Source: a bacterium
Lineage (GTDB): Bacteria; UBP15; UBA6099; DSWB01
NCBI GenBank assembly: GCA_020061125.1
Contig: JAGUYV010000417.1
Coordinates: forward strand, 1 to 13,949
Direction of reading: 5' to 3'
Length of the DNA: 13,949 nt
Below are positions 6,451 through 8,432 of the stretch, piece after piece. Position numbers and translations under genes: made by a program. The notes beneath the pieces are model-generated. The model was given only the letters and a program-made list of their open reading frames with translations, had not been told where the DNA came from and did no database searches. The first letter of the stretch is position 1. Each line of letters opens with the position of its first letter.

Positions 6451-6478
6451 TTGAAAATCCGGGGCGTTGGCCTATACT
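6451..6478 (+). promoter_or_regulatory. 16S rRNA upstream promoter P1 with phased A-tracts
   Basis: TTGAAA (6451-6456), a 16-base spacer, then TATACT (6473-6478). Immediately upstream are an A7 run (6432-6438) and an A6 run (6442-6447) centred about one helical turn apart, suggesting intrinsic bend or an UP-like element. Confidence 0.65.
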
Positions 6479-6533
6479 GAATAAGCGCCGGTTGTGCCGG
6501 CCGGGAAATTTGAGAAATTCTTGAAAAAATGTG

Positions 6534-6562
6534 TTGACAAACACTTGGCAGGGTAGTATACT
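6534..6562 (+). promoter_or_regulatory. 16S rRNA main promoter P2
   Basis: Consensus TTGACA (6534-6539), exactly 17 bases, then TATACT (6557-6562), with an AT-rich stretch upstream (6505-6531) that could act as an UP element. The expected start is near 6570. A 7-bp hairpin, AGACATC (6574-6580) with GATGTCT (6593-6599), would form at the very 5' end of this transcript. Confidence 0.88.
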
Positions 6563-6606
6563 AATAATTCGCAAGACATCAGACAAAGGTAGGATGTCTA
6601 TGGCGT

Positions 6607-6640
6607 GACCCTTGACAATGGAATAGTGAGAGCCCAGTTG
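6607..6640 (+). other. 5' arm of the pre-16S processing stem
   Basis: This 34-base segment is complementary to 8364-8397 downstream of the 16S gene: 32 base pairs with one bulged base on each side and one G-G mismatch. It loops out the whole 16S precursor, as bacterial RNase III processing stems do. Confidence 0.88.
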
Positions 6641-6723
6641 TAGTGGGTGGAAACAGCAGGCCTTGATAGGCTTTGTTTTGTTTTCGCCCAGTAACACCGT
6701 CAACGATAGTGATTTAGGATATT

Positions 6724-8298
6724 TTGACTGAGAGTTTGATCCTGGCTCAGGATGAACGCTGGCGGCGTGCCTAACACATGCAAGTCGTACGGACCGCCCG
6801 GAATGAAGCTTCGGCAGAGTTCCGGATACGGTTAGTGGCGAACTGGTGAGTAACACATGGGTAATCTGCCCTCCGGCCTGGAATAACAGGGGGAAACCCC
6901 TGCTAATACCGGGTACGTTCCTGCCGCCGCATGACGGCGGGAAGAAAGGTGGCCTCTGCTTGCACGCTGCCGCCGGGGGATGAGCCCGTGGCCCATTAGC
7001 TTGTTGGTGGGGTAACGGCCTACCAAGGCTGCGATGGGTAGCTGGTTTGAGAGGACGACCAGCCACATTGGGACTGAGATACGGCCCAGACTCCTACGGG
7101 AGGCAGCAGTGAGGAATTTTCCGCAATGGACGCAAGTCTGACGGAGCGACGCCGCGTGGGTGATGAAGGTTTTCGGATCGTAAAGCCCTGTCAGGGGGGA
7201 AGAAACCTGGTTGGCTAATACCCATCCAGCTGACGGTACCCCCGAAGGAAGCACCGGCCAACTACGTGCCAGCAGCCGCGGTAATACGTAGGGTGCAAGC
7301 GTTATCCGGAATCACTGGGCGTAAAGAGCTCGTAGGCGGCCTTGTAAGTCGAATGTTAAATATCCGGGCTCAACCCGGAGCATGCGTTCGATACTGCTTG
7401 GCTAGAGAGTGGGAGAGGAAAGTGGAATTCCTGGTGTAGCGGTGAAATGCATAGATATCAGGAAGAACACCAGTGGCGAAGGCGGCTTTCTGGACCATTT
7501 CTGACGCTGAGGAGCGAAAGCCAGGGGAGCGAACGGGATTAGATACCCCGGTAGTCCTGGCCGTAAACGATGAACACTAGGTGTGGGAGGTCATCGACCC
7601 CTTCCGTGCCGCAGTTAACGCATTAAGTGTTCCGCCTGGGGAGTACGGTCGCAAGATTAAAACTCAAAGGAATTGACGGGGACCCGCACAAGCGGTGGAG
7701 CATGTGGTTTAATTCGATGCAACGCGAAGAACCTTACCTGGGTTTGACATCTGGGGAATCCTGTGGAAACACGGGAGTGCCCTTCGGGGAGCCCCAAGAC
7801 AGGTGCTGCATGGCTGTCGTCAGCTCGTGCCGTGAGGTGTTGGATTAAGTTCCGCAACGAGCGCAACCCCTACCCTTATTTGCCAGCATTCAGTTGGGAA
7901 CTATAAGGGAACTGCCAGTTTATGACTGGAGGAAGGTGGGGATGACGTCAAGTCAGCATGGCCTTTATACCCAGGGCTACACACGTGCTACAATGGCCGG
8001 CACAACGGGTCGCAACACCGCGAGGTGAAGCCAATCCCTTAAAACCGGCCCCAGTTCAGATTGGAGTCTGCAACTCGACTCCATGAAGTTGGAATCGCTA
8101 GTAACGGCGGATCAGCACGCCGCCGTGAATACGTTCTCGGGTCTTGTACACACCGCCCGTCACACCACCCGAGTCGGGTGCACCCGAAGTCGATGACCCA
8201 ACCTGCAAAGGAGGGAGTTGCCGAAGGTGTGTCCGGTGAGGAGGGTGAAGTCGTAACAAGGTAGCCGTAGCGGAAGCTGCGGCTGGATCACCTCCTTT
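6724..8298 (+). rRNA. rrs: 16S ribosomal RNA, complete
   Basis: The gene runs from about seven bases before AGAGTTTGATCCTGGCTCAG (6731) to CTGGATCACCTCCTTT (end 8298). Conserved segments appear in order: ACTCCTACGGGAGGCAGCAG (7091), GTGCCAGCAGCCGCGG (7267), GGATTAGATACCC (7537), AAACTCAAAGGAATTGACGG (7660), and AAGTCGTAACAAGG near 8249. At about 1575 bases it is slightly longer than the E. coli gene. The CCTCC at the 3' end matches the GGAGG-type ribosome sites of the genes here. It is transcribed from P1 and P2, enclosed by a processing stem, and ended by a strong terminator, with no 23S, 5S or tRNA after it. Ends are set by alignment to E. coli termini in memory and may be off by a few bases. 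No intron or large insertion was seen. Confidence 0.97.
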
Positions 8299-8363
8299 CT
8301 AGGGAGCTTCTGCCGATGCGTCCGCGCTTGATGCGCTGCGCGACGGCACACTCCTAGGCCGAT

Positions 8364-8397
8364 CAACTGGTGCTCTCACTATTCGATTGTCAAGGTC
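8364..8397 (+). other. 3' arm of the pre-16S processing stem
   Basis: Reverse complement of 6607-6640 apart from one mismatch and single-base bulges. It ends only five bases before the terminator, showing that the precursor is built around 16S alone. Confidence 0.88.
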
Positions 8398-8401
8398 AAC
8401 C

Positions 8402-8432
8402 AAAAACCGGCCCCTCACGGGCCGGTTTTTTT
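8402..8432 (+). terminator. Intrinsic terminator closing the 16S transcription unit
   Basis: CCGGCCC (8407-8413) and GGGCCGG (8419-8425) form a perfect GC stem around CTCAC, followed by seven T residues. A five-A run before the stem can pair with the T run, so it may also work on the opposite strand. Confidence 0.93.

Follow-up and report, generated by a model that had tools for sequence, protein, structure and literature searches.

A 16S rRNA gene that is not followed by 23S and 5S genes raises the question of whether the rRNA operon is truly split or has merely been broken in assembly. The window analyzed here is a whole contig of 13,949 bp (C30) from the genome of an uncultured bacterium (G000), a 4.12-Mb MAG of 513 contigs that is 79% complete. 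The 16S gene occupies positions 6724..8298 of the + strand and matches Rfam RF00177 (SSU_rRNA_bacteria) at full length, with 1569 bits over positions 1-1533. A search of the window found no 23S (LSU match), 5S or spacer tRNA, as the original prediction had claimed, and the sole tRNA of the window, Arg(GCG) at 5900-5973, precedes the 16S promoters. Most bacteria use ACG (inosine) for the codons that this tRNA would read. The place where the 23S would otherwise stand is taken by a convergent aldehyde dehydrogenase gene (8594..10030, - strand; Pfam PF00171, E=1.5e-155), in keeping with the protein gene predicted on the opposite strand, and 5651 bp of non-rRNA sequence follow the 16S on C30.

A promoter scan of the region before the 16S gene detected exactly two sigma-70-type promoters, the same two that had been predicted: P1 (TTGAAA-16-TATACT, 6451..6478, + strand) and P2 (TTGACA-17-TATACT, 6534..6562, + strand). 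The promoter score alone is weak, as shuffled sequences give 1.1 such sites per 2.25 kb. Both promoters also align with relatives of the same order, P1 being alignable in three of them as TTGAAAAA..TATAAT and P2 in three as TTGACA..TA.AAT. An AT-rich near-palindrome, TTATATATATCTATATATAA, is present upstream of P1 at 6366-6385.

The flanks of the gene contain two complementary arms, also part of the original prediction, located at 6606..6640 (5' arm, 35 nt, + strand) and 8364..8398 (3' arm, + strand). Cofolding of these arms gave a nearly continuous helix of -53.5 kcal/mol, and comparison with the relatives showed that both partners of a pair were altered at four positions of the stem, in a register aligned by hand across four sequences, of which two are almost the same. 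The 5' arm contains a boxA-like CTTGACAATGGAATAGTG, whose counterpart before the 23S gene is ACCTTGAAAAGTGCATAGTG, and from their sequence we read both as putative boxA elements. A weak terminator-like match at 6658-6673, 3' of the 5' arm, is not conserved.

A hairpin scan of both strands detected an intrinsic terminator at 8402..8432 (+ strand). Its perfect stem CCGGCCC-CTCAC-GGGCCGG and the T7 behind it span 8407-8432, and the end at 8432 is as described from the sequence beforehand. Its closeness to the 3' arm was also as described, although the hairpin starts 38 nt, and not 34 nt, after that arm begins; the coordinates given beforehand are otherwise right. In loci of this order, the background for hairpins of this type is 0.13 per kb per strand. 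The hairpin is also terminator-like on the reverse strand, and could serve the convergent aldehyde dehydrogenase gene as well. A separate terminator scan of the window missed the hairpin at 8402..8432; continued pairing into the T run is the probable reason.

A search of the whole genome for 23S and 5S genes and their promoters, which had been proposed as a check, found one 16S (C30), one 23S (C31:19515-22536) and one 5S (C31:19275-19391), the last two adjoining each other on the same strand. C31 runs 4.1 kb further upstream of the 23S; this part contains several open reading frames but lacks a 16S. This single 23S-5S unit carries separate signals: a TTGACA..TATAAT promoter, a second promoter before it, and a long processing stem with the boxA-like ACCTTGAAAAGTGCATAGTG. 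One published criterion for unlinking is a distance of >1500 bp between 16S and 23S (given in PMC8178347), and another is >2000 bp with opposite-strand genes in between (given in PMC8172020). At the present locus no 23S lies within 1500 bp, or within 2000 bp, downstream of the 16S, the opposite-strand gene at 8594-10030 (-) intervenes and would exclude co-transcription, and the 23S and 5S are located elsewhere in G000.

These elements suggest how the two units would operate. The 16S would be transcribed alone from the tandem promoters P1 and P2, the two ends of its transcript would come together in a long leader-trailer helix to direct assembly and processing, including the presumed RNase cleavage, and transcription in the cell would end at 8402-8432. 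The 23S and 5S would form a second unit elsewhere, served by promoters, a boxA-like sequence and a processing stem of its own. From the promoters and the terminator, we infer separate primary transcripts for the units. Since each unit has a full signal set, the 16S could be made and processed alone.

A dispersed repeat of ~200 bp, composed of two modules, is located at 6110-6310 and also at C31:23131-23268 and C31:23431-23605 (in L004), and has 37 matches in G000 (itself included). The 16S and the 23S units both have copies upstream of them, and copies are often situated at contig ends. A plasmid BLAST search with the 16S returned, among the matches listed, only distant rRNA (~80%).

We compared six genomes of the same order, namely G001 (Dive96_bin1.91), G002 (USMO_maxbin.112), G003 (bacterium ADurb.Bin236), G004 (UBP15_UBA6099), G005 (RA.bin91) and G006 (USCA_metabat.19_sub), which together with G000 make up seven genomes from three families. 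The 16S and 23S genes lie on different contigs in G002, G003, G004, G005 and G006; contig ends cut one or both genes in G003-G006, which taken alone are weaker cases. In G001, the 9.8 kb upstream of the 23S are without a 16S, and the assembly has no 16S. The strongest case is G002 (97% complete), in which the 16S lies 95 kb into a 176-kb contig where no 23S was found, and the 23S-5S occupy 48-51 kb on a 93-kb contig. These single copies bear on the possibility that a linked 16S-23S-5S operon exists but is absent from the MAG, the 16S seen here being an extra copy. Such a mixed arrangement has a precedent, for example in Cellulosilyticum (described in PMC8178347), and with G000 only 79% complete and in 513 contigs, a second, linked operon could be missing. 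However, G000 has exactly one 16S and one 23S, and the far more complete G002 likewise has one of each, unlinked, which makes a missing linked operon highly improbable.

It could also be argued that the 16S contig is chimeric, or that assembly broke the operon at a repeat, and that the 23S really follows the 16S. Genes for rRNA are often broken or mis-joined in MAG assemblies, and a dispersed repeat family is present upstream of both units. Against this, the stem and terminator after the 16S recur in the independent assemblies of the relatives with different neighbors, the 16S of G002 lies inside a long contig where a 23S was searched for and not found, and every 23S is preceded by its own promoters and not by the end of a 16S. 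Promoters and stems are conserved around both units in the relatives, and terminators of different sequence occupy the same place after the 16S in G000, G002, G005 and G006; no clear terminator was seen directly after the 16S stem in G003. The genes neighboring the 16S differ among G000, G002/G003 and G005, and a shared chimeric junction is therefore not the cause of the split. As the promoters, the stem and, in four genomes, the terminator persist amid differing neighbors, an assembly artefact is very unlikely, to the point of being hardly credible. The unlinking is real and inherited, and not an assembly break, as the original prediction had maintained; the 23S and 5S are on C31, the same split is seen in the independent assemblies of the relatives, and it predates the divergence of the three sampled families. 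We conclude with high confidence that this is a permanently split rRNA operon, with the 16S unit alone, the 23S-5S unit elsewhere, and signals of its own for each.

A NADH-dehydrogenase/antiporter-type protein adjoins the 23S in G002-G004 (L059:5799-7256). The distant homologue in G000 (L004:890-2377; Proton_antipo_M, 28% identity) is found ~3 kb beyond the 5S, and the proximity of this protein to the 23S or 5S in both possibly represents an old synteny.

Unlinked rRNA genes occur in Planctomycetes and Helicobacter, and work comparable to the Buchnera analysis discussed below exists on the precursors of Helicobacter pylori (for which PMC7761764 gives a reference). According to the accounts in PMC7761764, PMC8178347 and PMC8172020, 16S genes unlinked from 23S-5S are also known in Thermus, Buchnera, Wolbachia, Borrelia, CPR, Chloroflexi and others. 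The original prediction had noted their presence in several bacterial groups, and PMC8178347 indeed reports them as widespread. Its suggestion that the locus newly shows how 16S is made without 23S was too strong, given this wide occurrence and the promoter and terminator analysis of the unlinked 16S of Buchnera in 1993 (Munson 1993, as cited in PMC7761764). The arrangement resembles the unlinked genes in the bacterial and archaeal survey of Brewer et al. (2020, ISME J 14:597; cited in PMC8178347 and PMC7761764), with the 16S >1500 bp from any 23S, the 23S-5S elsewhere, and clade-wide inheritance, and differs in belonging to an uncultured order related to UBP15/ADurb.Bin236. A literature search on UBP15 returned, among the matches listed, unrelated ubiquitin proteases. 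In Buchnera, too, the 16S stands in a single unit that has a promoter and a terminator of its own (Munson 1993, Rouhbakhsh 1995; as cited in PMC7761764 and PMC8172020), but Buchnera is a reduced symbiont, whereas the genome described here is ~4 Mb and its stem and tandem promoters are backed by comparison. In E. coli, a leader-trailer helix of >17 bp is needed for active 30S subunits, and boxA recruits the antitermination complex (both as described in PMC10250234). The long complementary flanks, the boxA-like sequence near the 5' arm and the upstream P1 and P2 are shared with the pre-16S of E. coli as that source presents it; there, however, both rRNAs are on one transcript, and here each unit has a set of its own. 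The unlinked layout is therefore already known, and what is new is its occurrence in a poorly studied lineage, well documented by comparison. Amplicon surveys of the 16S-ITS-23S type are blind to such lineages.

A new detail emerged outside the 16S finding, on the separate 23S-5S unit, whose leader contains a conserved hairpin. In all seven genomes, a terminator-like hairpin of the GCCCCGG/CCGGGGC type with a tract of 5-7 U stands after P2 and ahead of the boxA-like processing stem (C31, L004:8601-8668, - strand, with counterparts in L040, L041, L042, L043, L045 and L046). Its distance to that stem is ~38-56 nt, and it lies ~100 nt past the expected start from P2. A scan of ~85,000 species genomes for the pattern of hairpin end and boxA-like stem matched the six relatives only; this pattern captures one particular sequence form and misses others, and the window's own genome was perhaps not included. 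The nearest precedent is tL of the E. coli rrn leader, whose structure resembles a terminator or attenuator (Kingston and Chamberlin 1981, Zacharias and Wagner 1987; both cited via PMC3639268). The two differ in that tL is upstream of 16S in a linked operon, and the hairpin described here precedes a free-standing 23S and has a U tract; in the 16S leader, alignment with the relatives revealed no clear or conserved equivalent between P2 and the stem.

The hairpin may limit or regulate 23S synthesis. A tentative possibility is that it acts as an attenuator setting 23S output relative to 16S, with read-through controlled by some factor. This is consistent with the presence of a terminator hairpin and U tract between promoter and gene in all three families, against the background of 0.13 such hairpins per kb per strand. 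Termination of an upstream operon was rejected as its function in G001, since the nearest upstream gene there (DUF134) is divergent. The left arm can pair upstream, as an antiterminator would, in all five sequences folded. However, the fold energies relative to shuffles (z of -2.0, 0.4, 0.1, -0.5 and -1.1) were well within the shuffle range in four of the five. Antitermination of the LoaP type, which relies on a specialized NusG paralog, was rejected as a second NusG was not found: each genome had at most one NusG-domain gene, and two incomplete genomes had none. In addition, the core of the hairpin is kept in sequence and does not covary, and could instead be a protein-binding or processing element. 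As the antiterminator folds are mostly not above shuffles and no second NusG-type gene was found, we treat a regulated attenuator as a hypothesis and not a result. The boxA-like sequence lies 3' of the hairpin, so that the usual rRNA antitermination complex would be unable to form before it.

Somewhat less likely still is the more specific proposal that a conserved attenuator balances the split genes, such that many transcripts from the strong tandem promoters would stop at the hairpin and adjusted read-through would match 23S output to 16S. A third reading takes the stretch from P2 to the hairpin as a separate small RNA gene, the 23S being transcribed by read-through or from an unseen promoter. 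The ~100 nt from P2 to a strong terminator-like hairpin would suit such a gene. This is doubtful, however, as comparison of the 23S leader with Rfam gave weak matches at chance level and none above cut-off, the leader sequence is poorly conserved between families, and no promoter is visible in the ~38-56 nt from the hairpin to the stem. For the question of how equal amounts of 16S and 23S are maintained when their genes are split, this order is a clean case. Each gene is present once, the two units have parallel promoters and stems, and there is one clear asymmetry, the hairpin of the 23S leader.

Outside the order, no leader terminator was found before the 23S in G010, G018, G022, G045 and G015. 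In this set, 16S and 23S were not found linked in G010, G018, G022 and G045, and are separated by a long spacer in G015; fair comparison is limited to G045 and G018, as the upstream stretches of G022 and G010 do not resemble clean leaders. In the G015 locus (L081), 16S and 23S share a strand and stand nearly 4 kb apart, and an rRNA-type leader with a boxA-like GTTCTTTGAAAACTAAATAG is found directly before the 23S.
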